The position numbers were made by a program, and so were the translations under genes. Positions 4,432-24,837 of a stretch of DNA of 38,244 bases are shown here, in pieces (position 1 is the first letter of the stretch; every line of letters starts with the position of its first letter). The notes below the pieces were generated by a model that saw only the letters and a list, made by a program, of their open reading frames with translations, searched no databases and had not been told where the DNA came from. The stretch comes from Clostridiales bacterium (GTDB lineage: Bacteria; Bacillota_A; Clostridia; Saccharofermentanales; Saccharofermentanaceae), in NCBI GenBank assembly GCA_017649745.1, contig JAGCGE010000356.1, positions 1-38,244 on the forward strand, read 5' to 3'.

Positions 4432-4866
4432 TTACATTTTTAATGAGCAGAGGTGATCGACCGCTTCGATATAGCCGTCAAAGCCCTTACCGGTGATAGT
4501 CTTGCACGCAAAATAAGAAATGTATGAGATCTGTCTGAACGGCTCTCTTTCAGATACTTCCGAGATATGAACCTCGACAGTCGGAATATTTACAGCCTTA
4601 AGCGCATCCAAGATAGCAACAGACGTATGAGTATATCCGCCCGGATTAAAAACGATACCGTCGATTCCGTCGAAATATGCCTGCTGAATGATGTCGATGA
4701 GTCCGCCTTCAGAATTGTTCTGTCTGAAGACAGCTTCCACGCCCTTCTTGTAGCAGTGATCGCTTATATAATTTACAAGGTCATCATATGTCTTGGCACC
4801 GTAGATATCAGGCTCCCTGATGCCGAGCATGTTAAGGTTAGGTCCGTTGAGAACAAGTATCTTCAT
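4432..4866 (-). CDS. aroQ: 3-dehydroquinate dehydratase, type II
   Basis: This 144-residue cytoplasmic enzyme dehydrates 3-dehydroquinate to 3-dehydroshikimate, step 3 of the shikimate pathway. It is a type II enzyme, seen from ILVLNGPNLNMLGIREPDIYG (with the catalytic-loop Arg and Tyr), RQNNSEGGLID, FNPGGYTHTSVA (substrate-binding Asn) and VEVHIS (catalytic His). The usual IHAREEFR segment reads VSEREPFRQ, a minor variation. The start is the ATG at 4864-4866, with AAGGAGC 8 nt upstream and one base after the stop of the fused aroE-aroK gene. A longer in-frame start near 4911 would lie inside the neighbouring gene and adds 15 residues unlike the family. It is the last gene of the aro operon. 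Confidence 0.93.
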   Translation of the reverse strand: MKILVLNGPNLNMLGIREPDIYGAKTYDDLVNYISDHCYKKGVEAVFRQNNSEGGLIDIIQQAYFDGIDGIVFNPGGYTHTSVAILDALKAVNIPTVEVHISEVSEREPFRQISYISYFACKTITGKGFDGYIEAVDHLCSLKM

Positions 4867-4867
4867 A

Positions 4868-6118
4868 TTACAGCTCCTTGATAAGTTGATCGACGATCGC
4901 ATCTTCTTCACTGAAATCAGGAAGATCCCAGATTATATCGCTCACCTTCTCATAAAGAGGCGCGCGCTTATTCAGAAGATCCTCAATACTGTTATTCTTG
5001 CTTATAGGACGGTTCTTAGTGTCCTGCTTAAGAAGAGTAGGAAGAGGTCTCTTAATGTAGATGACCCTGGAATTACACTTAAGAAGGAAGTGGTTCTCCT
5101 CACGAGTCACGATTCCTCCGCCTGTCGATATAACGAGCCCCGACTTCGGAAGTATCTTATCTGCAAGAAGAGTCTCCATCCTGCGGAATTCGTTCTCACC
5201 CTTTTCGGAGATGACAGCAGAAGGCTTAATGCCGTATTCCTGCTCGAAAAGGATATCCAGATCAACGAATTCTCTTCCGAGAACAGAAGCGATCTTTCTT
5301 CCGAGAGTTGTCTTTCCTGATCCAGGCATTCCTACCAAAGTAATATTTCGCATTTCGTTTTCGAGTTCAGTGGTAACCTCATCGATCTCAGGAACATCGT
5401 AGTTATCGTAATCGGATATCTCGCCCCTGAAGATCCTGCTGGCCTTATGAGCCTGAGCTACGAGCATCGTAAGTCCGCCTGCAGTCTTAAGTCCGAGTTT
5501 TCGAGCTTCAGTAAGGAGCTTCGTTCCTGACGGATTATAGATGATGTCTGCAACGGCACAAAGGCTCTTGAACTTACTTATATCGATCGGCTGAGCATCC
5601 ACATCAGGATACATTCCGACAGGTGTTGTATTGATAATGACTTCCACATTAGGAAGTACTGTATAAACATTCTCGTAATTGATATCTCCTGTCCTGGAGC
5701 AGAACTCGACTATCGCACCCATCTTCTTAAGAGCATAGCTGCAAGCTGCGCTCGCGCCACCCGTTCCGAGGATAAGACATGACTTGGTAAGCACATTGAT
5801 GCCGGCTTTCTTAAGCATATAAGTGAATCCGTACACATCGGTATTGTATCCCTTGAAGTAACCTTCTTCTGTCTTAACGACCGTGTTGACTGCGCCCGCA
5901 TCGTGAGCTGCCTCCGACACTTCATCGCAATAAGAGAGGGCGAGCTTCTTATAAGGGATCGTTACGTTAAATCCCTTAAGATCTTCCTTCCCTTCGAAAA
6001 TATCTCTTACCTCAGATTCAGTTCTCTCGAGGATGCCGTATTCGTAATCCGCGAATGCTTTATGGATCCTCGGCGAATATGTATGTGGTAATGACTTTCC
6101 AAGTACACCGTAATTCAT
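4868..6118 (-). CDS. aroE-aroK: Fused shikimate dehydrogenase-shikimate kinase
   Basis: This single 416-residue protein covers two steps: NADPH reduction of 3-dehydroshikimate, then ATP phosphorylation of shikimate. Residues 1 to about 250 are AroE: YSPRIH near the N-terminus, NVTIPYK with the catalytic Lys, YNTDVYG with the catalytic Asp, the NADP loop GTGGASAACS, and NTTPVGMYP. From residue 256 an AroK domain follows: P-loop GMPGSGKTT, FVDLD (shikimate-binding Asp), FRRMET (Arg), STGGGIV and the lid NRPIS. All key residues of both halves are present, so both activities are expected. The ATG at 6116-6118 (AAGGAA, 10 nt after the pheA stop) is preferred over an upstream TTG at 6136. These enzymes are more often encoded by separate genes. 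Confidence 0.92.
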   Translation of the reverse strand: MNYGVLGKSLPHTYSPRIHKAFADYEYGILERTESEVRDIFEGKEDLKGFNVTIPYKKLALSYCDEVSEAAHDAGAVNTVVKTEEGYFKGYNTDVYGFTYMLKKAGINVLTKSCLILGTGGASAACSYALKKMGAIVEFCSRTGDINYENVYTVLPNVEVIINTTPVGMYPDVDAQPIDISKFKSLCAVADIIYNPSGTKLLTEARKLGLKTAGGLTMLVAQAHKASRIFRGEISDYDNYDVPEIDEVTTELENEMRNITLVGMPGSGKTTLGRKIASVLGREFVDLDILFEQEYGIKPSAVISEKGENEFRRMETLLADKILPKSGLVISTGGGIVTREENHFLLKCNSRVIYIKRPLPTLLKQDTKNRPISKNNSIEDLLNKRAPLYEKVSDIIWDLPDFSEEDAIVDQLIKEL

Positions 6119-6128
6119 ATTAATTTCC

Positions 6129-7280
6129 TTAAACAATTTCGTTATATGAGCCGAGATATCGAAGTTCAGACGTCATAGCCTTAAGTTCCGACATCATCTC
6201 AGCGAATCCTTCATTATAGATAGACGTCTCGAGATCAAAGTAGAACATGAATTCGAAGTCTCTACCCGGAAGAGGTCTTGACTCTATCTTAACAAGATTC
6301 ACGCCTCGTGCATAGAAGTAAGCGAGGATCTTATAAAGAGCACCCGGTTCATGCTTAAGGATCATCATCATAGATGTCCTGTTAGCACCGGGATAGATCT
6401 CTATCTTCTTTGAGATAACGATAAATCTCGTATAGTTATTTCCTGAATCCTGAACTGACGACTTGATCAGGTCAAGATCATAGAGTTCACCGCACTTGAT
6501 CGATGACAGACAGCAGATATCATTTCTTCCTGACTCAGCAACATACTTAGCAGCTTCAGCTGTGTTGCTGTAGTATGTGACCTTAACATCAGGTCCAAGG
6601 CTCTTTACGAATTCCTTGCACTGGTTGATAGCCTGCTCGTGAGAGATAACTTCCTTGATATCGCTCAGCTTACCGCCTTTTCGCATAAAGCAGTTATGGT
6701 CTACCTTGACCCTTACGGATCTTACGATCTTGAAGCTGTTCTTGATCATGAGATCATAAACAGCTGATACAGTTCCTGCATTGGAGTTTTCGACAGGAAG
6801 AACGCCATAATTACATAGACCTGCGTCTATTGCTTGGAATACCTGTGCGAAAGTCCTCATGAACATGATGTTCGGAATATTAAAAAGTCTCTCGCATGCT
6901 ACCTGTGAGAAAGCGCCTTCAACACCCTGGCATGCTACGTTTGCTCTTACAGGGAAAGGCTTAGAGTTCATCTCGTCGATCGCATCACGGATGATCTTCG
7001 TCTCGTCATCTTCGTGAGATACTACCTTAGTCTGAAGCCCTCTTGAAGCCTCGAAGAGCATCGTGTAGATAGGAGAGATATAAGGCTTTGTTCTGTCATC
7101 TGCCATATCATAGATCGCGGACATCTTCTCTCTTTCTCTTTGTCCGTCGTAGATCGCCTTACCGGAACCCTTCTTAAATTCACCGATCTTCTCGGCAACT
7201 TCCATTCTTTTCTGGAGGGCTGCAAGAAGGTCCTTATCGGCCTTGTCCATTTCGATCCTTAATTCATCAAGATTTGCCAT
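6129..7280 (-). CDS. pheA: Bifunctional chorismate mutase/prephenate dehydratase (P-protein)
   Basis: This 383-residue protein converts chorismate to prephenate and then to phenylpyruvate, the committed route to Phe. Residues 1-90 are an AroQ-type chorismate mutase (LDELRIEMDKADKDLLAALQ, with Arg and Lys of the usual helix and RMEVAEKIGEFK). Residues about 110-285 are prephenate dehydratase (ACQGVEGAFSQVACERLF, PVENSNAGTV, and TRFIVIS near the end). Residues about 298-380 are an ACT domain with the ESRPLPGRDFEF motif that binds Phe in feedback inhibition. AAGGAGA lies 8 nt before the ATG. It is the only chorismate mutase in the operon and so also supplies prephenate for tyrA. Confidence 0.94.
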   Translation of the reverse strand: MANLDELRIEMDKADKDLLAALQKRMEVAEKIGEFKKGSGKAIYDGQREREKMSAIYDMADDRTKPYISPIYTMLFEASRGLQTKVVSHEDDETKIIRDAIDEMNSKPFPVRANVACQGVEGAFSQVACERLFNIPNIMFMRTFAQVFQAIDAGLCNYGVLPVENSNAGTVSAVYDLMIKNSFKIVRSVRVKVDHNCFMRKGGKLSDIKEVISHEQAINQCKEFVKSLGPDVKVTYYSNTAEAAKYVAESGRNDICCLSSIKCGELYDLDLIKSSVQDSGNNYTRFIVISKKIEIYPGANRTSMMMILKHEPGALYKILAYFYARGVNLVKIESRPLPGRDFEFMFYFDLETSIYNEGFAEMMSELKAMTSELRYLGSYNEIV

Positions 7281-7292
7281 TTATATTCTCCT

Positions 7293-8363
7293 TCAGATCA
7301 TGTCGTATATAGCAAGTGCGGCTACGGCTTCGTATACGGGAACTGCCCTTGGTACGATACAAGGATCGTGTCTTCCCTTCGCACCGAGCTTAACGTTCTC
7401 ACGTGTAACAAGATCGACTGTATCCTGTTCCTTGCTTACCGTAGGTGTAGGCTTTACCGCAACATCGAAAACAATAGGTGCGATGCCGGTCGATATTCCG
7501 CCTAATATACCGCCACAGTTATTTGTCTTAAGCTTAAGCTTGTTCTCTTCGAAAACAAAATTATCGTTGTTCTCAGATCCTCTAAGCGTTGTTGCACCAA
7601 ATCCGTTACCGAACTCGACGCCCTTACAAGCAGGAACTGCAAAACACAATTGAGCGATCTTAGCTTCGATACCTTCGAAGATCGGTCCTCCGATACCGCC
7701 CGGAACTCCTTCGATAACTACTTCGATAACTCCGCCTACAGAATCTTCATCCTGTCTTGCGCTCTCGATAACAGCTTTCATGAGCTCGCCCTTCTCATCA
7801 GAGATTACAGGGAATTCCTTGTCTCTTACATCATGGAGCTTAGTAAGAAACTCCTGCTCATCTAAGTTCGCATATGAATCGTCAGATACATCTCCGATGC
7901 TCTTAACGTGAGCTGAGATCTCGATACCCTTCTCGCGAAGCTTGCTTAATGCGAGGAATCCGGCGATACAAATAGGTGCCGTAAGTCTTCCCGAGAAAGC
8001 TCCTCCGCCTGATGAATTGAATGTCTCACCATACTTAACGCCTGCTGTGTAGTCAGCATGTCCAGGCCTTGGGGTTCTCAGCAGTCCCGAGTAATCATGA
8101 GGCTTGATGTTGGTATTAAGGATATGAGCTTCGAACTCGTCGCCGTCAAATCTCTCGATAACAACTTCGTCAGCTTCCTTACGAGGCGTTGACCAGGCAT
8201 TTTGACCAGGTGCACGCCTCTTCATAAATCGGGAGAGACCTTCAGTATCGACGTCGAACTTATCGATACCCGTAACCTTTACACCGATCTGCTCACTATG
8301 GGATTCACCATAGATCCCGACGCTTATCTTGTTTCCTCGAAACCAGTTAAACTCTTTATTCAT
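7293..8363 (-). CDS. aroC: Chorismate synthase
   Basis: This 356-residue enzyme performs the last common step, elimination of phosphate from EPSP to give chorismate, with reduced FMN. Visible signatures are IYGESHSEQIGV near the N-terminus, RRAPGQNAWSTPRKE, RPGHADYTAGVKYG, SSGGGAFSGRLTAP and the SARQDEDSVGGVIE stretch, followed by FGNGFG. Clostridial chorismate synthases share the GGG-FSGRLTAP form. The chosen ATG (8361-8363) overlaps the aroA stop as ATGA and has a GGAGGAAAG site; an upstream ATG at 8417 would add 18 residues inside aroA. No flavin reductase domain is fused. Confidence 0.94.
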   Translation of the reverse strand: MNKEFNWFRGNKISVGIYGESHSEQIGVKVTGIDKFDVDTEGLSRFMKRRAPGQNAWSTPRKEADEVVIERFDGDEFEAHILNTNIKPHDYSGLLRTPRPGHADYTAGVKYGETFNSSGGGAFSGRLTAPICIAGFLALSKLREKGIEISAHVKSIGDVSDDSYANLDEQEFLTKLHDVRDKEFPVISDEKGELMKAVIESARQDEDSVGGVIEVVIEGVPGGIGGPIFEGIEAKIAQLCFAVPACKGVEFGNGFGATTLRGSENNDNFVFEENKLKLKTNNCGGILGGISTGIAPIVFDVAVKPTPTVSKEQDTVDLVTRENVKLGAKGRHDPCIVPRAVPVYEAVAALAIYDMI

Positions 8364-9625
8364 GAGGCGCTTTCCTCCAACAGTTCCCACAATCCCGGAA
8401 AGGACTTGGAAACACATTCATCATTATCTATATTTATGACCTTGCCCGTCCATGCAGCGATGAGGCAAGCTGTCTGTGCCATCCTGTGATCACCATAAGT
8501 TACGAACGGATCATTCTTTGTCTTATCTTTTATACCGTCACCGATAAAGAGACTGCCATTCTCATATCTGCAGGATACTCCGACACCTTCGAGCGCCTTT
8601 ATAGTCGCTTCGATCCTGTCGCACTCCTTATACCTGAGTCTCTCGACATTGATGATCTGTGTGCCGTCCTTGAATGCTGCAGCAAGTACTGCGATATAAG
8701 GAACGATATCAGGGTAGTCACATGCATCTAAGACAAGTCGTCCTGCGGACTTTCTCTTTTCCTTGATCGTTACTGTATCACCAGCTGTCTCGAGCGAGAT
8801 ACCCATCTCAGCAAGGATATACATTATGAACTTATCTTTCTGGAAAGACTTAAAGTTAAGTCCGCGTAAAGTCATCTTACTATCCTTGCATAATGCTCCG
8901 AGACTTAAAAGGAATGCTGCAGTTGACCAGTCACCTTCCGCCTCAAGATCTACGTCGAGCTTTTTCGAAGAGATGTCGACAAAATAGATGCCTTCATCTT
9001 CATCGACTAAAACGCCCTTATTATTCAGTGCACCGATAGTAAGTTCGAAGTAGCCTTTTGACTCGAGTTCACCGACAAGTCTTACCTTGCTTTCAGGAAG
9101 AAGGATAAGAGACATCAGAAGTCCTGAGATGTACTGTGAAGAAATGTTGCCTTCGATATCGAAGGTTCCTTCCTTAAGATCACCTGAAACGATTATCTCT
9201 TCTTTATCGAAGTCCTTCTCGACTCGGATTCCGTGACGATAGAGGCACTCTGTAAGCTGATCTATCGGGCGTTCCAGGAGCTTACCCTTAGGCTTAAAGA
9301 CGAGCCTTCCGCCCATGCCTTTGTGATAGAGATAAGCTATGCCGCAGCTGATCATAAATCTCAATGTGGAACCGCTCTCGTTACATGGCATGATTACATC
9401 TCCGCCGTTACTGCTAAGCAATGCTTCGATGCATCCTTTTGTCGCGATTATATCCTTGTTGTCGGACTCAAGCGGGGTAGTAAGCTTCTTTATGAGTTCT
9501 TCGTCGTTAATGTTTTCGAGCGTAAGAAGGAGAAAGCTTATGATAAGTTCCCTGTGAAGGACCGACTTGGATGCCGGAACCTTGAAATCCATATCGAGTT
9601 TTTTGATCATTATGTCTCGACTCAT
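8360..9625 (-). CDS. aroA: 3-phosphoshikimate 1-carboxyvinyltransferase (EPSP synthase)
   Basis: This 421-residue enzyme joins shikimate-3-phosphate and phosphoenolpyruvate, step 6 of the pathway. The N-terminal substrate loop reads VPASKSVLHREL, the PEP-binding loop NESGSTLRFMIS, followed by QYISGLLMSL, then RYKECDRIEATIKAL and TYGDHRMAQTACLIA near the C-terminus; these are the usual catalytic and binding segments. The ESGSTLRF form of the PEP loop is common in Clostridia and differs from the NAGTAMR of the plant and E. coli type. Start and stop both overlap the neighbours by 4 nt (ATGA), which implies coupled translation. Confidence 0.93.
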   Translation of the reverse strand: MSRDIMIKKLDMDFKVPASKSVLHRELIISFLLLTLENINDEELIKKLTTPLESDNKDIIATKGCIEALLSSNGGDVIMPCNESGSTLRFMISCGIAYLYHKGMGGRLVFKPKGKLLERPIDQLTECLYRHGIRVEKDFDKEEIIVSGDLKEGTFDIEGNISSQYISGLLMSLILLPESKVRLVGELESKGYFELTIGALNNKGVLVDEDEGIYFVDISSKKLDVDLEAEGDWSTAAFLLSLGALCKDSKMTLRGLNFKSFQKDKFIMYILAEMGISLETAGDTVTIKEKRKSAGRLVLDACDYPDIVPYIAVLAAAFKDGTQIINVERLRYKECDRIEATIKALEGVGVSCRYENGSLFIGDGIKDKTKNDPFVTYGDHRMAQTACLIAAWTGKVINIDNDECVSKSFPGLWELLEESAS

Positions 9626-10647
9626 AGATACCTCTTCAATTCTTCAAGGTCCATGGTCCTTAACTCGCATTTACCTATCTCACTTACGTAAGCGATCGTG
9701 ATCTTGTCGCCGCGCTTCTTCTTGTCATTCATGATGCCGCTCGTCAAAGACTCGACAGGATCATTATTCTCGTAAGGAAGATCGTAGAGCTTCAACATGT
9801 TGATAAGATCGTTATATATGGAACTGTTCTTGCTGATCCTTGCCATACCCATCGCTACGGCATTTCCGTGCGAGATCGTGAAGTTGCTGTCGCGCTCGAT
9901 GGCATGGCCGATCGTGTGGCCGAAGTTAAGAGTCTGACGAAGACCGTTGTCATGCTCGTCCTGCTCTACAACGTATGCCTTAAGCTCGACACATCTAGCG
10001 ACTATATCGACAAGATCGTGTGATGTCTTGGTAAGCTTATTCTGGAGCTTGATATACAGATCCTTATCACTTATGAAAGCATACTTAATGACTTCTGCCA
10101 TTCCCTCTGCGAAAAGCTCATCGCTCAATGTCGACAGGAGATCAACATCGCAGATAACAAGCGAAGGCTGATGGAATGCACCGACAAGGTTCTTTCCTTC
10201 CTTAAGATCTACTCCCGTCTTTCCTCCGACAGATGCATCGACCTGTGCGAGAAGTGTCGTCGCGATCTGGATGACCTTGATACCTCTAAGGTAGATGGAG
10301 GCTGCGAAGCCTGCCATATCTGTTGTGACACCACCGCCTAATGCGACTACGGCATCTGTTCTTGTGAAACTGTTTGATGCGAGAACCGAGAGGATCTTCA
10401 TGACCTCATCCATGTTCTTGTGCTGCTCGCCTGCTTCATATATGTAAGTGAGCACTTCGTATCCTGCACTCTCGAGGTATTCCTTTGTCCTGTCGAGATA
10501 CAGTGGTGCGACATTTGTCTCGCTTACCAGGAGGATCTTAGCGATCCTTGAATCTGTGATCTTAATATATGTTCCGATATCCTTCAGGATGTCATTTCCA
10601 ACGAAGACTTCATAACCGTTTCTGACTTTAACCTTGATCCTTCTCAT
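9622..10647 (-). CDS. aroB: 3-dehydroquinate synthase
   Basis: This 341-residue NAD- and metal-dependent enzyme cyclises DAHP to 3-dehydroquinate, step 2. The sequence shows EAGEQHKN, ALGGGVTTDMAGFAAS, the long conserved block from TTLLAQVDASVGGKTG to KNLVGAFHQP, EGMAEVIKYA, and the metal-binding His residues in LNFGHTIGHAIE and SHGNAVAMGM. The length is typical of AroB. The ATG overlaps the tyrA stop by 4 nt and the stop overlaps the aroA start by 4 nt, so this gene is the middle of a translationally coupled trio. Confidence 0.94.
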   Translation of the reverse strand: MRRIKVKVRNGYEVFVGNDILKDIGTYIKITDSRIAKILLVSETNVAPLYLDRTKEYLESAGYEVLTYIYEAGEQHKNMDEVMKILSVLASNSFTRTDAVVALGGGVTTDMAGFAASIYLRGIKVIQIATTLLAQVDASVGGKTGVDLKEGKNLVGAFHQPSLVICDVDLLSTLSDELFAEGMAEVIKYAFISDKDLYIKLQNKLTKTSHDLVDIVARCVELKAYVVEQDEHDNGLRQTLNFGHTIGHAIERDSNFTISHGNAVAMGMARISKNSSIYNDLINMLKLYDLPYENNDPVESLTSGIMNDKKKRGDKITIAYVSEIGKCELRTMDLEELKRYL

Positions 10648-11489
10648 GTTGACCTCTTAGAGCCGTCGAGCTCTTCCTTTCTGTCTCTGCCTTCCTCGAG
10701 AAGTGTCTTCAATGTCTCGAGGTCGTCCTCCTCCATTGCCTTCTTGTACTTATTGAGTTCATCAGTAAGATGTTCTATCTCTTTAATAAGATTATCCTTG
10801 TTCTCCATAAACAGCTCAGACCACATCGTCGGGTTGAGCCATGCCACCCTCGTCATATCCTTATAGCTTCCAGCGGAGAATCCGTGGTGCTCAGTAGCCG
10901 TAGGGCTCTTAACATATGCATTCGATACAAGGTGCGCCATCTGTGATGTGAAAGCGATCATCTCGTCGTGCTTGTCTGCATGAGACAGGCAGAATGATCC
11001 GAACTTACATGGCTCCAGAGCTTCCTTAACTCTGTCAATAAGCTGCATATCATCGAAAACAGGCGGTACCAGGACGATCGGAGCACCATTAAAGAGAGTT
11101 GCTCTCGAATGCTTAAGTCCTGAATATTTGTTACCTGCCATCGGGTGAGTTCCGACAAAGATGAATCCGTTCTTCTTTGCTATCTTGAATGCGCTCTCGC
11201 AGACAACTCTCTTGTTACCGCAAGCGTCGACTACAAGTCCGTCTTTTCGAAAATACTTGCCATTGTCCTTAAGATATTTAACAGCTGCTTCAGGATACAG
11301 ACAGATGACGACAAGATCCATGTCTTTAAGGTTATCCTTGTTAAGCTCGCCGTCTACGAAACCTGCGAGCTTACCCATGATGACGGCAGAGGAATCTATA
11401 TCGAACACATAGACCTCGTGCGAAGACTCTTTATATGCCTTCGCGAAAGATGCTCCGATAAGACCTAAGCCTACGATTCCTACCTTCAC
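10644..11489 (-). CDS. tyrA: Prephenate dehydrogenase
   Basis: This 281-residue NAD-dependent enzyme turns prephenate into 4-hydroxyphenylpyruvate for Tyr. The N-terminal Rossmann motif is VGIVGLGLIGASFAKAY. The active-site segment THPMAGNKYSGLKHS and the helical dimerisation part with FTSQMAHLVSNA and DMTRVAWLNPTMW follow the family. There is no chorismate mutase or ACT domain, so Tyr feedback probably acts elsewhere, for example on DAHP synthase. The start is a GTG at 11487-11489, one base after the aroF stop, with GAGGTGAT upstream inside aroF; the next Met is far inside the fold. Confidence 0.93.
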   Translation of the reverse strand: MKVGIVGLGLIGASFAKAYKESSHEVYVFDIDSSAVIMGKLAGFVDGELNKDNLKDMDLVVICLYPEAAVKYLKDNGKYFRKDGLVVDACGNKRVVCESAFKIAKKNGFIFVGTHPMAGNKYSGLKHSRATLFNGAPIVLVPPVFDDMQLIDRVKEALEPCKFGSFCLSHADKHDEMIAFTSQMAHLVSNAYVKSPTATEHHGFSAGSYKDMTRVAWLNPTMWSELFMENKDNLIKEIEHLTDELNKYKKAMEEDDLETLKTLLEEGRDRKEELDGSKRST

Positions 11490-11490
11490 G

Positions 11491-12489
11491 TCAGATCACC
11501 TCGCGAATCTTCAAAACACGTTTTGCAACATCATCAAACTGTTCAGGTGTAAGTGATTGTGCGCCGTCACAAAGAGCATTCTTCGGATCGTTATGGACTT
11601 CGATCATGAGTCCGTCAGCTCCGCATGCTGCTGCGGCCATTGCCATTGGCTTAACCATTCTCGCGATACCTGTCGCATGTGACGGATCGACGATGACAGG
11701 GAGATGAGAAAGTTCCTTGAGCATCGGTACTGCCGACAGGTCAAGAGTATTTCTCGTATATGTCTCATAAGTTCTTATACCGCGCTCGCAAAGAATGACC
11801 TTCTCGTTACCGCCTGCCATGATGTACTCGGCGCTCATGAGGAATTCCTTCATCGTGTTCGCGAGACCGCGCTTAAGAAGTATTGGTTTATCTATCTTGC
11901 CGAGAGCCTTAAGAAGCTCGAAGTTCTGCATGTTCCTTGCACCGACCTGAATGAGATCTACATTCTCGAAAAGCGAAAGATGCTCGGCACTCATTATCTC
12001 TGTTACTATAGGCATTCCCGTTGCTTCCTTAGCCTTAAGGAGAAGCTCGATGCCGTCTGCCTTAAGTCCCTGGAAATCATATGGTGATGTCCTAGGCTTA
12101 AATGCGCCGCCTCTGAGAAGTGATGCGCCTGAAGCCTTGACCTCTTTAGCTATATCGATTATCTGGGATTCGCTTTCTACTGAGCATGGACCTGCGATAA
12201 ATGCGAAGTTGCCTCCGCCGATCTTAACGCCGTTTACGTCGATAACGGAGTCGTCAGGATGGAACTTCCTGTTAGCATTCTTAAACGGCTCACTTATCCT
12301 CGTAACCGACTCGATGATATCAAGTCCGCTCAAAAGATCGATGTCGACCTTTGTTGTGTCACCGATAAGTCCGATGACCTTTCTGAATTCGCCTTCGGAG
12401 ATGTGTACGCGAAGACCCTGCGATTTAAACCAATCTACCAGATTGTTAAGTTGCTCCTCGCTTACTCCGGGTTTAATAACTGCGATCAT
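11491..12489 (-). CDS. aroF: 3-deoxy-7-phosphoheptulonate (DAHP) synthase, type I-beta with N-terminal ferredoxin-like regulatory domain
   Basis: This 332-residue enzyme condenses PEP and erythrose-4-phosphate, the first step of the pathway. Residues 1-70 form the ferredoxin-like (ACT-like) domain known from Thermotoga maritima DAHP synthase, where Tyr and Phe bind. The TIM barrel from about residue 90 shows IAGPCSVES, GGAFKPRTSPYDFQG, LLKRGLANT, ILCERGIRTYETYTRNTLDL and VDPSHATG, which hold the PEP, metal and substrate residues. The ATG at 12487-12489 has AGAGGT 8 nt upstream. It is the first gene of the aro operon, about 45 nt downstream of the attenuator terminator, so its expression should follow Phe/Tyr-tRNA charging. 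Confidence 0.94.
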   Translation of the reverse strand: MIAVIKPGVSEEQLNNLVDWFKSQGLRVHISEGEFRKVIGLIGDTTKVDIDLLSGLDIIESVTRISEPFKNANRKFHPDDSVIDVNGVKIGGGNFAFIAGPCSVESESQIIDIAKEVKASGASLLRGGAFKPRTSPYDFQGLKADGIELLLKAKEATGMPIVTEIMSAEHLSLFENVDLIQVGARNMQNFELLKALGKIDKPILLKRGLANTMKEFLMSAEYIMAGGNEKVILCERGIRTYETYTRNTLDLSAVPMLKELSHLPVIVDPSHATGIARMVKPMAMAAAACGADGLMIEVHNDPKNALCDGAQSLTPEQFDDVAKRVLKIREVI

Positions 12490-12534: not shown

Positions 12535-12567
12535 AATCAAAAAACCGCCCGGATGTGATCCGTGCGG
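12535..12567 (-). terminator. Attenuator terminator (segments 3:4) of the aro operon leader
   Basis: On the minus strand CCGCACGGAT (12558-12567) pairs with ATCCGGGCGG (12545-12554), a 10-bp stem with one A-G mismatch and a CAC loop. It is followed directly by six T (12539-12544) and then GATTAAAG. It lies between the leader peptide and aroF, so it must be bypassed for operon expression. Confidence 0.85.
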
Positions 12568-12653
12568 CGTTTATCTTCAACAATATCGTCTATTTTTGCA
12601 CAAATCACATCAAGCCTTGCTGTCTGCAAAGTAGCTAAAAAAGTAATATGTGC
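12552..12653 (-). promoter_or_regulatory. Antiterminator and anti-antiterminator pairings of the aro leader RNA
   Basis: Segment 2, GATGTGATTTGTGC (12598-12611), begins inside the leader-peptide stop codon. It is complementary over all 14 positions (two G-U pairs) to segment 3, GCACGGATCACATC (12552-12565). Forming 2:3 removes the left arm and loop of the terminator. Segment 1, GCACATATTAC (12643-12653), spans the Gly-Thr-Tyr-Tyr codons of the leader peptide and pairs with segment 2 over 10 of 11 positions. The arrangement is the classic three-way switch: a stall at Tyr/Phe codons covers segment 1 and frees 2:3; a ribosome at the stop covers segment 2 and lets the terminator form. The pairings were found by eye, not by folding software. 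Confidence 0.8.
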
Positions 12654-12675
12654 CAAAATAAAAGTTCTTGTTCAT
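12610..12675 (-). CDS. Phe/Tyr-rich attenuation leader peptide of the aro operon
   Basis: This is a 21-codon reading frame starting ATG AAC AAG AAC, with GGAGAG 7 nt upstream and a TGA stop at 12610-12612. Residues 5-16 read FYFGTYYFFSYF. In total 5 Phe and 4 Tyr make up 9 of 21 residues, and there is no Trp. The codons sit exactly at regulatory segment 1, and the stop lies at the edge of segment 2. Its role would be to sense charging of tRNA-Phe and tRNA-Tyr through ribosome stalling, as in the pheA leader of enterobacteria, not to act as a protein. It is preceded by a consensus promoter about 30 nt upstream. Confidence 0.85.
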   Translation of the reverse strand: MNKNFYFGTYYFFSYFADSKA

Positions 12676-12704
12676 TTAAATTCTCTCCAAAAAACTACGG
12701 AAGT

Positions 12705-12733
12705 ATTACATCACGTTTGAACATCAATGTCAA
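12705..12733 (-). promoter_or_regulatory. Promoter of the aro operon
   Basis: On the minus strand a perfect TTGACA (12728-12733) is followed by 17 nt and TGTAAT (12705-12710), five of six consensus bases. Transcription should begin near 12698, about 23 nt before the leader-peptide ATG. The -35 box starts only 14 bp after the stop codon of the upstream polymerase gene. Confidence 0.85.
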
Positions 12734-14391: not shown

Positions 14392-17139
14392 TCAGTAAGG
14401 TTTAATTCCTGATGCTTCACAAAGACTAACAAATTCCTCACTCTTTGAGAAGCAGTCGATGACGCTTTCTCTTGTAGCGTTCTTGTCAAGGAGATCTACC
14501 CAATAAGCTAAACCTGCTTCATCAGGTGTTCTATCCATAAATGTCTTGTAAAGACGATCTACGAATTCAGTGTTGGACAAATTGTATCCCTTGAACTCTG
14601 CACTTGTGAAGAACAACAATGCAATATCCCTACCTGTAAGGCGGAAGTTAGCAAGTTCGCCACACCAGTACTTAAGTCCCTCATCATCAGGCTGACGATT
14701 AAGCGCACATGCATAAAGTCTCGTAACGAAAGCCTTAAGTTCTTCAGTAGGCTCTACTGTTGCGTCAGGCTTCGTATCACTACCTGAGTAGATACCGTAC
14801 TCGGCACATGTATTAGCCCACTCAACTGAGAAGATAAATCCTCTTGCAACTTCTTCTCTAGATGCACCTGCATCGAGGAGACCTACCCAGTATTCCTTAC
14901 CCTCCTTATCAGCCTCACGTCCAAAGAATGCGATATAGAGGATGTCAACAAACTGACTGTTAGTGAGTTTCTTATCCTTCAGCTCTTTCGAGAAGAGGAA
15001 TTCTTTCGCAACATCAGCACCCGTGCATTCGAATCTGGATACTCTGTCGATCCAGTACTTCTCGCCTGACGGATCGGATTCTCTTCCAAGAACGTCCTTA
15101 TATAATCTCTTTACAAAATCATTGATAAGTTCGTTTCTAGGCTTTCTCGTTTTGCCGCTATTATTATCATTTCCGCCAGGATTATTATCGTTTCCGCCAG
15201 GATTATCATCGCCACCTGAAGGATTTGTTATTACATCGTCTTCCTTGAAGTGGATAGTAACTTCTTTTTTAGTAGAGAGCTTATCTGTTGCCTCACTATT
15301 CTGATTCTTAATGATCGCTACTTTATCCCAGTCGGCCTTGTAACCGTCATAGTAGATATCAGTAAATGATTCATTATTTGCAAAAGCTGTATCGTGGATC
15401 GTCTTGATGCTTCCCGGCATATTGATGCTCTTAAGGCTCTTACAGTTGCTGAATGACAGATATTCAATAGTTTCCAATGTATCAGGAAGCTTAACATCTG
15501 CGAGTGAATCGCTCATTGCAAGGCCAGGGCACTTGATGGTCTTTATACCGTCAGCAAACTCAGCATTCTTAACTGCTTTTGCATCAGCAAAATGGAATGC
15601 GACATTGTCGTAGCATTTAGGAACAACAAGATCCTCTTTATCATATGTTCCGAGATCGATACGTGCATATTCCGCATAATTCGAGCCTATTTCAGGCATC
15701 TTGTTATCCACATGATTAAGGCCTAAAAAGATATATTTATTCTCGCCGAAGCTGACCTTGTTGACATTAGTCAGGAACGGAAGATAGACGTTACCGTCAA
15801 ATCCGGCACTGACTTCAATATCCATTTGCTTATCGACCATCTCATAAGCGCCAAACTTAAGCTCGATCCAATCATCGATCTCAACCTCAGAAGCAAGACA
15901 GAGAGTTGAAGCTTCACTCAGTTTTTGTGTAAATCCAAGTGTTGTCGAAAAATCGAAATCATTTCTGTTCTCGCCAACGATAACATGCATGGCACCTTTA
16001 TCGAGATACCACATAAAGCCAGGGATAGAGGATCCCATCGGACAATATCCGCTGTCACCTACAGGGACCTCATCACTTCTGGTCTTAACAGGAAGGATGA
16101 CGTTTGTAGAATCTTTTAAACAATGAACTGTGATCTCATGATCTGTGAGAATACCTTCAAGGGTTGCATATACGGCAGTCTGTCCGTCAGGATTTGTTGT
16201 AAAATCAAATTCCATCTTCTTTATCTTATTCCATTCATCCTGAGTTCCGTTAAAGTAGATATCAGTTATCTTAGAACCAATGAAAGCATCCGGCTTGATC
16301 TCCTTGACGGAGTTAGGCATCTCCAACTCCTGAAGACTCTTGGTATTCATGAATGCACTGTATTCGATGATCGAAACAGTTTCAGGTATATTAACGGTCG
16401 TAAGCGCCGTATCTCCCAAAAAAGCATAGTTATCGATATTATCGAGTCCGTTAGGAAGAACTATTTCCTGAATCTTATCACTATTATTTATCCTGAGATC
16501 AACTTTGGCATAACTCTCAGGAACAAAGACCAGCCTGCTGTCGATCTTTTGGAATTCAAGAGTCAGATCACTGCTGTCGTTGCGCTTGATCTCCGGAAGA
16601 GTGATATAGTCATTCGATTCTCTTGTAGAATAATTACGGAAAACAGCATAGAAAGGACTTACCGTATCAACCTTGAGATATCTCAGTGCATCGACCTCTT
16701 CCATGAAGAATACGCCTCTCATACTCTGACCGAATTCAAAATCATATGTGGTACTTGTCATCGGATCAAAATAGATAAGAGGTCTCTCTTCTGTTCCGCC
16801 ATAATCAAGATAAACATATTTTTCATCAGGACATGTTACATAAGATCCGAGAAAACACTCGTTAAACGTCGGGATTGCTTGTTCTAAAGACACCTGTTCC
16901 GAACGATATTGGGATTCTACAGGAGAAAAATTGACCTTCATACAGATCGGCGTATCGTTGTAGTATTCAAAATCTAAACCTGCACGAGAATATCCGCTTG
17001 TATCACCATAGTCATACTCCACTCCGGAAGGACAATAACCCGTATTCATCGGGTCAGTATCTGCGTTCACTGAGGCGAACATCGACATGACCATAGTCGA
17101 AGCTAACAAGACGCTCGTCGCCTTCTGAAATTTGTTCAT
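14392..17139 (-). CDS. Secreted BspA-like leucine-rich-repeat protein with four C-terminal DUF4214 units
   Basis: This is a 915-residue exported protein. The signal peptide is residues 1 to about 26 (basic MNKFQK start, hydrophobic core, likely cut after VNA). Two similar modules follow, each opening with GYCP(S/M)G near residues 35 and 365, and each ending in LRR_5/BspA-type repeats (about 215-310 and 535-620, with IDNYAFLGDTALTTVNIPET and TIEYLSFSNCKSLKSINMPG). The LRR ends also match (ITDIYFNG...EWNKI and FTDIYYDG...DWDKV). A Gly/Asn linker (about 639-665) leads to four DUF4214 repeats, e.g. VKRLYKDVLGRESDPSGEKY. There is no LPxTG or membrane anchor. The role is probably at the cell surface. 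The ATG at 17137-17139 is chosen because GGAGGTG precedes it; a longer frame starts 4 codons earlier. Confidence 0.83.
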   Translation of the reverse strand: MNKFQKATSVLLASTMVMSMFASVNADTDPMNTGYCPSGVEYDYGDTSGYSRAGLDFEYYNDTPICMKVNFSPVESQYRSEQVSLEQAIPTFNECFLGSYVTCPDEKYVYLDYGGTEERPLIYFDPMTSTTYDFEFGQSMRGVFFMEEVDALRYLKVDTVSPFYAVFRNYSTRESNDYITLPEIKRNDSSDLTLEFQKIDSRLVFVPESYAKVDLRINNSDKIQEIVLPNGLDNIDNYAFLGDTALTTVNIPETVSIIEYSAFMNTKSLQELEMPNSVKEIKPDAFIGSKITDIYFNGTQDEWNKIKKMEFDFTTNPDGQTAVYATLEGILTDHEITVHCLKDSTNVILPVKTRSDEVPVGDSGYCPMGSSIPGFMWYLDKGAMHVIVGENRNDFDFSTTLGFTQKLSEASTLCLASEVEIDDWIELKFGAYEMVDKQMDIEVSAGFDGNVYLPFLTNVNKVSFGENKYIFLGLNHVDNKMPEIGSNYAEYARIDLGTYDKEDLVVPKCYDNVAFHFADAKAVKNAEFADGIKTIKCPGLAMSDSLADVKLPDTLETIEYLSFSNCKSLKSINMPGSIKTIHDTAFANNESFTDIYYDGYKADWDKVAIIKNQNSEATDKLSTKKEVTIHFKEDDVITNPSGGDDNPGGNDNNPGGNDNNSGKTRKPRNELINDFVKRLYKDVLGRESDPSGEKYWIDRVSRFECTGADVAKEFLFSKELKDKKLTNSQFVDILYIAFFGREADKEGKEYWVGLLDAGASREEVARGFIFSVEWANTCAEYGIYSGSDTKPDATVEPTEELKAFVTRLYACALNRQPDDEGLKYWCGELANFRLTGRDIALLFFTSAEFKGYNLSNTEFVDRLYKTFMDRTPDEAGLAYWVDLLDKNATRESVIDCFSKSEEFVSLCEASGIKPY
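15160..15222. repeat. Three tandem 21-bp units in the Gly/Asn linker of the surface protein
   Basis: Units at 15160-15180 and 15181-15201 differ at one base, and the third (15202-15222) is diverged. They encode the seven-residue repeat PGGNDNN. Being a multiple of 3 bp, the tract could gain or lose units without breaking the frame. Confidence 0.8.
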
Positions 17140-17175
17140 AAGCACCTCCATTCATACACATCAAAATAAAATGAC

Positions 17176-21838: not shown

Positions 21839-23182
21839 ATGAAGTTTGATGAGAATGATCCAAAATATTTTGTGAGCAACAAATCAATGTTGATGAATTC
21901 AGAGACCCAGCAATTACTTTTCGAGCACAAAGAAAGAGCCAGAGAGCAATTAAATGCACTCGTAAACGACGCTAAGAATAAGTTTCTCGGTAATGACGAT
22001 TCATATATTGATGAGGTCCTTCATCCTGAAAAGGTAAAACCAAAGGAAAAGGGTTCATTCAAGGGTCTCGTGCCACTACTTATCTTCGGAGTCGGAGTGA
22101 TATCTGTGCTCATGATCGCCAAGACAAGAAACTTCATTGGTGTAATGGCAGCATTCTTCTCGATAATACTCGCTTTAGGAATCTATATTCTCGTAACAGG
22201 AAATGCAAAGGTCAAGACTTACTCAGGATATACATCTAACACTAAGGGTGGCGGCATATTCCTTATAATCCTTGGCATTCTTGGAATCACTCCTGCATTG
22301 ATCGGAAACAGATTCGCACTGGGAAGCACTCCTTTGCTTCTCGGTATTCTTCTGTTCGGAGCGATCGGACTATATATGCTCGTAATGTTCATCATGTCTC
22401 TTCCTTTCATTCCTAGCAGATACAAAGTAACAGTAGATGCCTCATGTGTGGGATTCGCAAGATGGGTCGAATCAGAGGATAACAGAGAAGTTCTCTATAC
22501 TTCACCGATCTTCGTTTACGAATATGAAGGCAGCGAATATGTAAGCCTTTATGATAATCCGATCAAGGGTTCAGCGGCTGATACATTGATGGGAAATAGT
22601 CAGATAACTATCGATCCTAAGTTTCCGAATGATATAAGACGAGGACGTCGTTCGACTGATTTTCAGGCTTTGCTCATTTCACTCCTTCTTCTTCTCATGG
22701 CAGGAGTGTTAGTATACTTCTTGTTCGCAAACAATCTGATATTGGATGAAGTTGATAACAACACTCAGAGCTTTTCATCAATCATATCCACACTGATGGA
22801 TAAAAACACCTCTAACGATGAGAAAGCAGATAAGCTCGAGAGACTCATTTCAGGATCAGGAACAATAACCGATAAAAATATCGATAAGAAGTGTCCTAAG
22901 GGAAAGACATGGTATGTTGAGGAAGTATATCTCGATGATGAAAAGATAGTGGCGGGAGAAAAAGAAATCATCCTGTACGTCAAGGATGACGACGCATTTG
23001 CTCCTTATACGATCAATGCGAATTCAAGCCACAGAGTAGCCGAATTGTACGAAAAGAACTTTTTCTTCTATACGATCGACGAAGAAGCATTAGCTAACGG
23101 TAAGCCTTACAAGATCGTGTTCTTCTCACGTAATGCTAAGACATACACCTACGAAGGCGATCATACGGCTTATGTGAAATGA
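21839..23182 (+). CDS. Hypothetical multi-pass membrane protein
   Basis: This 447-residue protein matches no family I recognise. Residues 1-75 are charged and probably cytoplasmic. Four membrane helices follow between about 78 and 200 (LVPLLIFGVGVISVLMIA, FIGVMAAFFSIILALGIYIL, GIFLIILGILGITPALIG, LLLGILLFGAIGLYMLVMF). Next is a soluble stretch (about 200-275) like a DUF3592-type loop (EYEGSEYVSLYDNPI), then one more helix (ALLISLLLLLMAGVLVYFLF). An outer domain of about 140 residues at the C-terminus is rich in Asp, Lys and Tyr. The ribosome site is poor (AGGGC). Its end lies 2 nt from the end of the convergent ABC permease gene with no terminator between. The function is unknown. Confidence 0.7.
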   Translation: MKFDENDPKYFVSNKSMLMNSETQQLLFEHKERAREQLNALVNDAKNKFLGNDDSYIDEVLHPEKVKPKEKGSFKGLVPLLIFGVGVISVLMIAKTRNFIGVMAAFFSIILALGIYILVTGNAKVKTYSGYTSNTKGGGIFLIILGILGITPALIGNRFALGSTPLLLGILLFGAIGLYMLVMFIMSLPFIPSRYKVTVDASCVGFARWVESEDNREVLYTSPIFVYEYEGSEYVSLYDNPIKGSAADTLMGNSQITIDPKFPNDIRRGRRSTDFQALLISLLLLLMAGVLVYFLFANNLILDEVDNNTQSFSSIISTLMDKNTSNDEKADKLERLISGSGTITDKNIDKKCPKGKTWYVEEVYLDDEKIVAGEKEIILYVKDDDAFAPYTINANSSHRVAELYEKNFFFYTIDEEALANGKPYKIVFFSRNAKTYTYEGDHTAYVK

Positions 23183-23184
23183 TC

Positions 23185-24837
23185 TTATGACTTGATCCTC
23201 CAGGTCTTTGGTGCAAGCTTAAAGACCAATTTACGCATGAAGAAGAGGAATGCTGCCGAAAGGACCGTAAGTATTCCTGCAAGAACAGCAGAATGAGCAG
23301 GTACCCATATGATTATCGTTAAGATCGTTCCTATGATGATCCTAACGACTGCATATAATCCGCTCTTTACTTTTACTGTTGTCGTAAATGGCTGGAAAAG
23401 ATAATACAGCACGAGCCAGCTGCTTGAGTAGATAAGTGTGATCAGCATAGGGATGAGAAGTGTCACAAGATAATGTAACGGATAATCCTGCCCGCCTGTG
23501 AAAAACAGGATAAGATCAGCGAATAATCCACAAGCAATACCAGGGCCGATATTGATCTTCAATAGTTGCTTTATCCTGATGTCGAATAACTTGATTATCT
23601 TTTCAGGTTGCTTGAAAAAACTGAATGTCATCAGACTGTTATCACAGTTGATGTACATTGCCTGTGTGCACTTAAACGAATTGTCAGCTAATGAGATCGG
23701 TACTAGTAATCCCAGAAGATGGAACTGAACCGCCCATCTTAAGAATTCACCAAGAGTCGAAGTCGCAGACATGAAAGCCGGATTCTTAATGCGTTCGTAG
23801 ATCGTTAATCCAAAGATAATCGCAATGATCAAAGTGAATATGAAAGGCTTTAACATGAGCATGCTCCTGTGTCTCCTGACAAACAGAGCATTAAGATATT
23901 CGAATCCTTTTTTGTCGCCCTTTACCGTACCTGCAGCACTTATCTTCTTAAAGTTCTTAGTGGTATCAGGTTCCCTATATTTCTCGATCTCTTCTCTTGC
24001 GATATTGTCGTGCAAAGCTCTTCTGTGGATAAACGGATCGAGATTCTTGAGTTCAAAGAATCCCCAAACTCCAAGCAGCATAAGAACTGAAACAACAGCA
24101 AGAATGATCGGGAACGGAATGATCATTCCTCCGATAACGAAAATCACTACCAACGGGCACAAAAGGATAACGCCGATAACCCTGATCAAGAATGCAACGT
24201 AACTATTCTTAAGTGACTTATTCCTTTTCCTTTTCAGCTTGTAACCGAATGCCTGAACACCTGTACCAAATAACTTGATGAATACAGCGAGCACAGGTAT
24301 GAAAAGACAGAGCCAGATAGGTGCTCCGCAGATAAGTCCGATAACACCTGCGATAAGATAACCGATCACGAGCTTAATGATGTCATAGATGAACAACGTA
24401 TTATTGAGTTTTCGAGCATTCATCCTGAGCATGAATACGAGATATTCCTTCTCTGTAGAACATCTGAATACAGAGCGATTGACAAGGACTCCGCCTAAGG
24501 CATACACAAGGAAGAGAAACAGTGCGATATCCGCATATAGAACAGCTCCTGACATTTCTGTTTCCAGCCCAAGTCCCATATACTCCGACTTAAGAAGGAA
24601 CGTGATAAGATAGATCGCTCCCAGTCCTGCGATCTTACCTATGAAAAGAAGGAAGATCTCCTTAATTATACGGAAGAACCAGTAAACGAACTTAAGCTCT
24701 TTGGTGGCATATAATCTGTCAGGAATAAGCGAGCCGATCAGAGGAGTTTTTTTCAATGCGAAGACAAGGCCGTTATAGCCTACGATACTCCTTAAGCTTA
24801 TTACCTGAAGTAATGTATTCAGAAATTCTTTAATCAT
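23185..24837 (-). CDS. ABC transporter permease-like membrane protein
   Basis: This 550-residue protein has about ten to twelve predicted membrane helices, starting after a short segment with FALKKTPLIGSLIPDRLY, a pattern I associate with clostridial membrane proteins that pair with an ABC ATPase. The middle (about 295-345) is a charged cytoplasmic loop (RREALH-like HRRALHDNIAREEIEKY). It contains no ATPase and no solute-binding motif. The start overlaps the ATPase gene by 8 nt, so both are translated together and very probably form one exporter. Substrate not predictable. Gene end faces the plus-strand hypothetical gene at 2 nt distance. Confidence 0.7.
   Translation of the reverse strand: MIKEFLNTLLQVISLRSIVGYNGLVFALKKTPLIGSLIPDRLYATKELKFVYWFFRIIKEIFLLFIGKIAGLGAIYLITFLLKSEYMGLGLETEMSGAVLYADIALFLFLVYALGGVLVNRSVFRCSTEKEYLVFMLRMNARKLNNTLFIYDIIKLVIGYLIAGVIGLICGAPIWLCLFIPVLAVFIKLFGTGVQAFGYKLKRKRNKSLKNSYVAFLIRVIGVILLCPLVVIFVIGGMIIPFPIILAVVSVLMLLGVWGFFELKNLDPFIHRRALHDNIAREEIEKYREPDTTKNFKKISAAGTVKGDKKGFEYLNALFVRRHRSMLMLKPFIFTLIIAIIFGLTIYERIKNPAFMSATSTLGEFLRWAVQFHLLGLLVPISLADNSFKCTQAMYINCDNSLMTFSFFKQPEKIIKLFDIRIKQLLKINIGPGIACGLFADLILFFTGGQDYPLHYLVTLLIPMLITLIYSSSWLVLYYLFQPFTTTVKVKSGLYAVVRIIIGTILTIIIWVPAHSAVLAGILTVLSAAFLFFMRKLVFKLAPKTWRIKS

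Follow-up and report, generated by a model that had tools for sequence, protein, structure and literature searches.

Ribosome-mediated transcription attenuation of the Yanofsky type has long been known, and the Phe leader (RF01859) is a classical example that attenuates pheA-type operons of proteobacteria; in Firmicutes, T-boxes sense tRNA charging and control the terminators of amino-acid genes. The usual account, as given in an excerpt of PMC2965389, credits proteobacteria with leader-peptide attenuation and Firmicutes with T-boxes, and the same excerpt reports a His leader of hisS/hisZ in bacilli where ordinary leader-peptide attenuation takes the place of a T-box. Upstream open reading frames (uORFs) ahead of aromatic genes have also been noted: the entry for uORFC-13-1 in PMC8632094 describes an aroF uORF of Acholeplasma and environmental sequences, with 24 representatives, for which attenuation was proposed, and the Fig. 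6b legend of PMC6429828, a survey of five genomes including Clostridium novyi, mentions two Phe- and Tyr-encoding uORFs upstream of shikimate genes.

Here, we analyzed a 38,244-nt stretch of DNA from a Clostridiales bacterium (contig JAGCGE010000356.1; hereafter, the window) and found an element ahead of aroF that is, with high confidence, a classical ribosome-mediated transcription attenuator, read by way of Phe and Tyr codons and standing in front of the whole aro operon. Like RF01859, it combines a short leader bearing control codons with mutually exclusive hairpins and a terminator before the first gene; unlike RF01859, its leader reads both Phe and Tyr, it precedes a whole shikimate operon, and its host is a Clostridia-type bacterium. 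It also differs from the T-box, an RNA that binds tRNA directly and has no leader peptide. The His leader of hisS/hisZ, to judge from the excerpt (PMC2965389), is likewise a Firmicutes leader-peptide attenuator, for another amino acid and other genes. Compared by its description only, uORFC-13-1 is similar in being a uORF ahead of an aroF terminator, with a Phe-coding U run (PMC8632094), and the two Phe/Tyr uORFs of PMC6429828, compared by a single legend line, may belong to the same family as the Clostridia aroF leader. In the literature searched (subscription papers and preprints being outside its scope), we found no description of this leader, nor is it described in the parts covered of PMC11109978, on the trpB motif, or of PMC1262725, a survey of actinobacteria. 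The mechanism is a known one; what is new is a family without a matching Rfam entry here, possibly glimpsed before.

The attenuator occupies 12733-12539 of the minus strand, from promoter to U6 (Table 1), and the parts that a preliminary description of this DNA had read from it are present: a TTGACA-N17-TGTAAT promoter, a 21-codon Phe/Tyr leader (7 F/Y within 10 residues) with GGAGAG upstream, and a segment 2 fully complementary to segment 3 (14/14 pairs, two G-U; -20.2 kcal/mol for the duplex). The terminator with its U6 lies ahead of aroF as described, at a distance of 49 nt from the end of the U run to the aroF ATG (12489), not the 45 nt first given. A consensus promoter scan omits this promoter, as its rule requires the second base of the -10 element to be A. 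Downstream, the eight genes from aroF to aroQ are close-packed or overlapping; upstream, a Wzy_C (O-antigen-ligase-like) gene ends at 12748. No trp genes were found among the 19 window ORFs scanned against Pfam (ORFs up to 25.6 kb). Elsewhere in the window, 14392-17151 of the minus strand encodes a 919-aa protein that has both BspA-type leucine-rich and DUF4214 repeats and adjoins an O-antigen-ligase-like gene, and two long ORFs (21839-23182, plus strand; 23185-24837, minus strand) beside an ABC transporter ATPase gene have no match in Pfam or NCBIfam.

Table 1. Parts of the attenuator and genes of the aro operon in the window.
Feature	Position	Strand	Basis
Promoter: -35 TTGACA, 17-nt spacer, -10 TGTAAT	-35 12733-12728; -10 12710-12705	minus	read from sequence
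Shine-Dalgarno GGAGAG of leader	12688-12683	minus	read from sequence
Leader ORF, MNKNFYFGTYYFFSYFADSKA + TGA, 21 codons	12675-12610 (ATG 12675, stop 12612-12610)	minus	sequence and family conservation
Control codons (leader codons 5-16)		minus	sequence
Segment 1, GCACATATTAC, spanning codons 8-11 (GTYY); partner of segment 2	12653-12643	minus	folding and relatives
Segment 2, GATGTGATTTGTGC; first base inside leader stop codon	12611-12598	minus	sequence and folding
Segment 3, GCACGGATCACATC; 5' arm and loop of terminator; 14/14 pairs with segment 2	12565-12552	minus	folding and relatives
Segment 4, ATCCGGGCGG; 3' arm of terminator; pairs with 12567-12558	12554-12545	minus	folding
U6 of intrinsic terminator	12544-12539	minus	read from sequence
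aroF, DAHP synthase with ferredoxin-like N domain	11491..12489	minus	domain search
tyrA, prephenate dehydrogenase	10644..11489	minus	domain search
aroB, 3-dehydroquinate synthase	9622..10647	minus	domain search
aroA, EPSP synthase	8360..9625	minus	domain search
aroC, chorismate synthase; coordinates of listed ORF, gene may start further in	7293..8417	minus	ORF list and domain search
pheA, chorismate mutase-prephenate dehydratase	6129..7280	minus	domain search
aroE-aroK fusion	4868..6136	minus	domain search
aroQ, type II dehydroquinase; coordinates of listed ORF, gene may start further in	4432..4911	minus	ORF list and domain search

All three pairings of the proposed switch are predicted when the window leader is folded. 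The full leader RNA adopts 1:2 plus 3:4 (-40.8 kcal/mol, z -3.78; 0/200 shuffles as low), the 1:2 hairpin having an energy of -16.3 kcal/mol (-19.9 with flanks) and the 3:4 hairpin alone one of -12.5 kcal/mol; the energy of 2:3 is equalled in 1% of 200 spacer shuffles and that of 1:2 in 1.5%. We then moved the front edge of a ribosome along the window RNA. The predicted probability of the terminator is 0.96 without a ribosome; it falls to 0.001-0.08, with P(2:3) at 0.90-0.975, when the front edge lies at 12640-12614 (the later F/Y codons), and it is back at 0.96 once the edge is beyond 12606, that is, with the ribosome at the stop codon. The geometry claimed for this leader, in which a stalled ribosome frees segment 2 and one at the stop covers it, is the one by which the predicted fold switches, as in a textbook attenuator.

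For the cell itself, we infer stalling, the tRNAs that are sensed and readthrough of the terminator, as follows. A ribosome would trail RNA polymerase as the leader is transcribed. If charged tRNA-Phe or tRNA-Tyr ran short, it would stall within codons 5-16 and mask segment 1, leaving segment 2 free to form 2:3, so that the terminator would be blocked and the aro operon transcribed. If both tRNAs were plentiful, the ribosome would reach the stop and cover segment 2, or leave so that 1:2 forms; with segment 2 occupied, 3:4 would form and transcription would stop before aroF.

We assessed whether the leader is conserved using aroF relatives picked by aroF similarity alone, namely the best 80 of at least 580 confirmed candidates. 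Frequencies were counted over 80 loci (the window and 79 relatives with enough upstream sequence, oriented by tblastn); they are quoted from these 80 because the wider sets (132 loci, 95 leaders) include loci fetched by the covariance model R1 described below. Seven duplicate loci and one locus with a short upstream region (L068) were dropped from the comparison of upstream regions as a whole. Within this set drawn from the best 80 of at least 580, and with the window included, at least 7 F/Y in 10 residues occur at 56/80 loci, as against 0.3% of dinucleotide-shuffled 300-nt upstream regions, and at least 5 F/Y in 10 at 68/80 loci, as against 8.8% of shuffles. The F/Y leader ahead of aroF is not due to chance, and the Phe/Tyr frame is conserved in relatives of the window. 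Twelve of the 80 similar loci, again from the best 80 of at least 580, have no such leader; they include L012, whose genome is, of 10 compared, the nearest to the window as judged by iPGM. Upstream of aroF, L012 has a hairpin of ~23 pairs where the leader would be.

The layout recurs along with the frame. Many relatives have, downstream of the codons, a block resembling GTAAAAGTGATTTGTGCTGC and, ahead of aroF, a terminator resembling GCAGTGAAATCACTGC, and a terminator is present in 90 of the 95 loci with leaders (window included). Complementarity between the Tyr/Phe codons (TATTACTTTTACTTT) and GTAAAAGTGAT lets the sensor codons act as segment 1 as well; in relatives, GTGATTTGTGCTGC pairs with the terminator over its 5' arm and loop. 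This bears on the idea that the nascent peptide itself, sensing free Phe, Tyr or a chorismate product, arrests in the exit tunnel. A FAAEYYFYF-like core, extending beyond bare F/Y, is common to many relatives, as might be expected of an arrest peptide; however, the window is without the AAEY core, the peptides differ greatly in length and spacing, and, with the codon run being segment 1 of 1:2, constraint at the RNA level may explain much of the conservation. We regard such peptide arrest as highly improbable.

R1, a covariance model of 1:2 plus 3:4 built on 24 seeds, matches 55 of the 80 aroF loci (best 80 of at least 580) on the sense strand at E ≤0.01, 24 of these 55 being its own seeds. 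At default filters, R1 does not recover the window up to E 1, and with filters off it scores the window at 15.7 bits (E 0.014 in 2 kb), which would make the window a divergent member; the Treponema loci L001, L002 and L040 score 34.5-34.9 bits (E about 6e-4). Rfam accounts for the leader neither in the window nor in the loci of 20 relatives: its scan found no family at threshold in the window and, in those 20 loci, only a tRNA. The Phe leader RF01859 reaches 16.3 bits on the window against a threshold of 55 (E 3.1), and T-box RF00230 has no match there. A T-box, riboswitch or protein-bound leader working without translation could draw on the T-boxes that precede aroF in L086 and trpE in L189 and L193, and on the best sub-threshold Rfam match in the window, the trpB motif RF04312 (24.8 bits against 59, E 0.2), which gave no match at E ≤1 in 20 loci found by R1. 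Against it stand the lack of any Rfam family at threshold in the window and the nature of the conserved element, a translatable F/Y frame with a Shine-Dalgarno site, and we give a translation-free leader next to no credence.

Do the alternative pairings fit one another within each locus? In an alignment-free test, segments were swapped between 54 non-redundant loci (2000 permutations; 15 of 69 loci were dropped for a motif score <9 or as near-copies), with segment 2 placed by a consensus chosen after the alignments had been viewed. Matched segments paired more stably than swapped ones for 2:3 (-14.8 vs. -10.3 kcal/mol, sd 0.36; 0/2000 permutations as low) and for 1:2 (-9.7 vs. -7.1 kcal/mol, sd 0.29; 0/2000), and the control pairing 1:3 gave -5.6 vs. 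-5.3 (sd 0.24; 225/2000). A second control, segment 2 against itself (2:2), also gave 0/2000 and was set aside because a segment's own palindromes are counted twice. Segments suit their own locus better than swapped partners. Individual loci give a weaker signal: 2:3 reaches the 5% level of spacer shuffles in 30/69 loci and the 0.5% level in 11/69, and 1:2 reaches the 5% level in 30/69. As a bare count, segment 2 starts 10-28 nt past the last control codon in 61/69 loci.

Covariation, which the preliminary description had proposed as a check in all three stems, appears for 1:2 plus 3:4 in alignment A1 (24 loci): 70 cells are changed on both sides vs. 28.1 (sd 4.7) in shuffled alignments, the covariation score is 0.346 vs. 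0.194 (0/500 shuffles), and 82.3% of cells are paired vs. 74.4% shuffled and 38-50% when slid. Both-side changes fall in 9 of the 12 terminator pairs and in only 5 of the 15 pairs of 1:2. On the MAFFT columns of A1, 2:3 shows no covariation (76.7% paired vs. 75.1%, score 0.097 vs. 0.091), which we put down to loop indels; for this stem we rely on the swap test, which preceded the column-based one. Paired changes in 2:3 can be read among the closest kin of the window (GATGTGAT/ATCACATC in the window, AAGTAAT/ATTACTT in L002 and AAGTGAT/ATCACTT in L040), and the 2:3 helix is bulged in L001, L140 and L142.

Folding across the family was less uniform. For 90 loci (five of 95, without a terminator, were left out), equilibrium folds with a ribosome at the stall position keep the terminator in 81 and release it in nine, the window being one of these nine; in the 81, a switch would have to be kinetic. 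Because attenuators decide during RNA synthesis, we folded half-made transcripts ending just after segment 3, a proxy chosen after the equilibrium test had failed. In these, 13.6 segment-3 bases are paired upstream when the ribosome is stalled, compared with 8.9 without a ribosome and 8.6 with a shuffled spacer; 56/90 loci go up by at least 2 and one goes down, and 53/90 beat their own shuffles at 0.05. In this folding model, the result fits kinetic control.

The codons themselves differ with the gene that follows. Leaders ahead of aroF contain 477 F and 427 Y, both residues occurring in 95/95, whereas those ahead of free-standing pheA contain 219 F and 6 Y over 28 rows, with no Y in 24; a few pheA leaders contain a Trp codon. 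The pheA set comprises 32 rows, best matches within one family and so non-independent, of which 28 have at least 5 F/Y in 10; L182 and L224 are one locus and L223 looks spurious. No leader was found in four of the 32 (L207, L216, L220 and L221), the starts being poorly placed in the last three. Among 27 pheA loci of a 30-genome set, a Phe leader precedes each of the four that are free-standing, and the 23 adjoining aroC lack a leader of their own (L174 showing two overlapping chance ORFs at the aroC end). The three pheA leaders that R1 found in class genomes contain Phe and no Tyr when read from their likely starts. As far as sequences can tell, the control codons are suited to the product of the operon, and this codon specificity is the best evidence that they would be read as such.

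Leaders of the erm type act as general sensors of stalling and antibiotics. A uORF ahead of hflX has been proposed to act as such a general sensor, according to the passage on it in PMC8632094. The aro leader might similarly sense translation speed or antibiotics, any slow ribosome opening the operon and the F/Y run being a convenient slow stretch, and the same RNA logic would indeed answer any stall in codons 5-16; but codon content tracks the gene product, Phe plus Tyr for aroF and almost only Phe for free-standing pheA, and we think a general sensor very unlikely, if less so than peptide arrest. The attenuator mechanism put forward for the window thus draws support from the conserved F/Y leader, the within-locus fit of the pairings and gene-appropriate codons.

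Two leaders lie ahead of other genes. On the reverse strand of L158 (about 1508-1727), R1 matches the leader LNTLFVSAAILLTVIAGLLTSDSGYLRCLQTD ahead of a leuA-like gene, by eye a 2-isopropylmalate synthase; these bacteria may thus also possess a branched-chain leader with a comparable layout. In L137 (1483-1578), the leader MFLSVLFVFICLYFYFFAFLFCKSKSVLCCG, with a similar antiterminator layout, precedes an AMP-binding (AMP-binding_C_2) gene, perhaps phenylacetate-CoA ligase-like.

We then asked where Trp stands in these genomes. The 30-genome set holds 29 genomes with an R1 match (G227 ahead of pheA only) and G009 without one; pheA is found in 27, the TrpE N-domain in seven and TrpC in eight. 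The TrpE and TrpC family searches were positive in 14/14 control genomes, and pheA in 27/30 speaks against mere missing data as the cause of so few trpE and trpC. Most leader carriers in this set look like Trp auxotrophs. The single Phe/Tyr leader over the whole aro operon stands as first described; the further suggestion that it sets the supply of Trp precursors is weak and, with trpE in 7/30 and trpC in 8/30, probably moot in most carriers. Where trpE is present, a T-box lies above the Rfam threshold upstream of two of the seven genes (L189, L193), a T-box-like GGTGGCACCGCG core is seen by eye upstream of four more (L190, L191, L192, L194), and the seventh (L195) has no T-box by Rfam or by eye. 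In these genomes, a leader peptide thus seems to serve as the sensor for Phe and Tyr, and mostly a T-box for Trp, where Trp is made. A T-box also takes the place of the leader ahead of aroF in L086 (by Rfam) and L089 (by motif only), so related aroF genes use different sensing devices. The leader is no lone exception within Firmicutes: among the related Clostridia aroF genes, such leaders are common.

Across 291 genomes of the class, R1 matched at least 26 genomes at 29 or more places under strict filters; of 29 such places, 21 lie ahead of aroF, three ahead of pheA and one ahead of the AMP-binding gene, and four, probably false, have no related gene. Across 398 genomes of the phylum, under the same filters, at least eight had matches, at 10 or more places, six of them ahead of aroF. 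Given the strict filters, and given that R1 misses the window at default, both genome counts are lower bounds. On an aroF tree (FastTree, 132 rows), the leader label requires 18 changes, compared with 32.3 on shuffling, and starred branches force at least 10 of the 18; the leader is therefore clustered but has often been lost or gained.

On the same tree, the window falls in a clade with five rows (support 97), three of them (L001, L002, L040) named Treponema or Treponemataceae and two (L140, L142) from the genus of L001's genome, and this clade sits among rows named mostly as Clostridia. The window does not look Treponema-like, since its iPGM shares 71% identity with the iPGM of G009, which is a MAG named Lachnospiraceae, and about 40% with those of the Treponema MAGs. 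The L001 contig does look Treponema-like: it carries PBP2, mreB, rpoD and dnaG upstream of the aro genes, and its PBP2 shares 64-84% identity with PBP2 from the other six genomes in its genus, 58% and 30% with PBP2 from the other two Treponema MAGs, and no more than 35% with PBP2 from three Clostridia-side genomes. A Treponema-like contig bearing an aroF of this clade indicates that the aro operon crossed into Treponema together with its leader, the direction being suggested by the aroF tree. Other aroF genes from the genus of L001 (L143-L146; about 60% identical) score with different F/Y-rich leaders, L145 having the leader MNTVRVADYKNHFFSKQVFYYFYYYGYSCAMRKSKKQCF and a terminator; these leaders are perhaps older or of separate origin. 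F/Y leaders also occur in MAGs named Bacteroidales (L019) and Coriobacteriales (L061), perhaps through transfer or misbinning.

Taken together, and with somewhat more conviction than doubt, we read these loci as one Phe/Tyr attenuator family, with control codons that are at the same time segment 1, serving as the main aromatic regulator in a large set of gut and rumen Clostridia delimited by their aroF. The family would read Phe and Tyr only because most carriers have lost Trp synthesis, would split into a Phe-plus-Tyr form (aroF) and a Phe-only form (pheA) when pheA leaves the operon, would share genomes with trpE T-boxes, and would have moved with the operon into Treponema. With leaders at 56/80 aroF loci (from the best 80 of at least 580) and T-boxes in some of the same genomes, the family offers a natural test bed for the evolution of attenuator specificity, and it indicates how gut and rumen bacteria are likely to respond to amino-acid supply.
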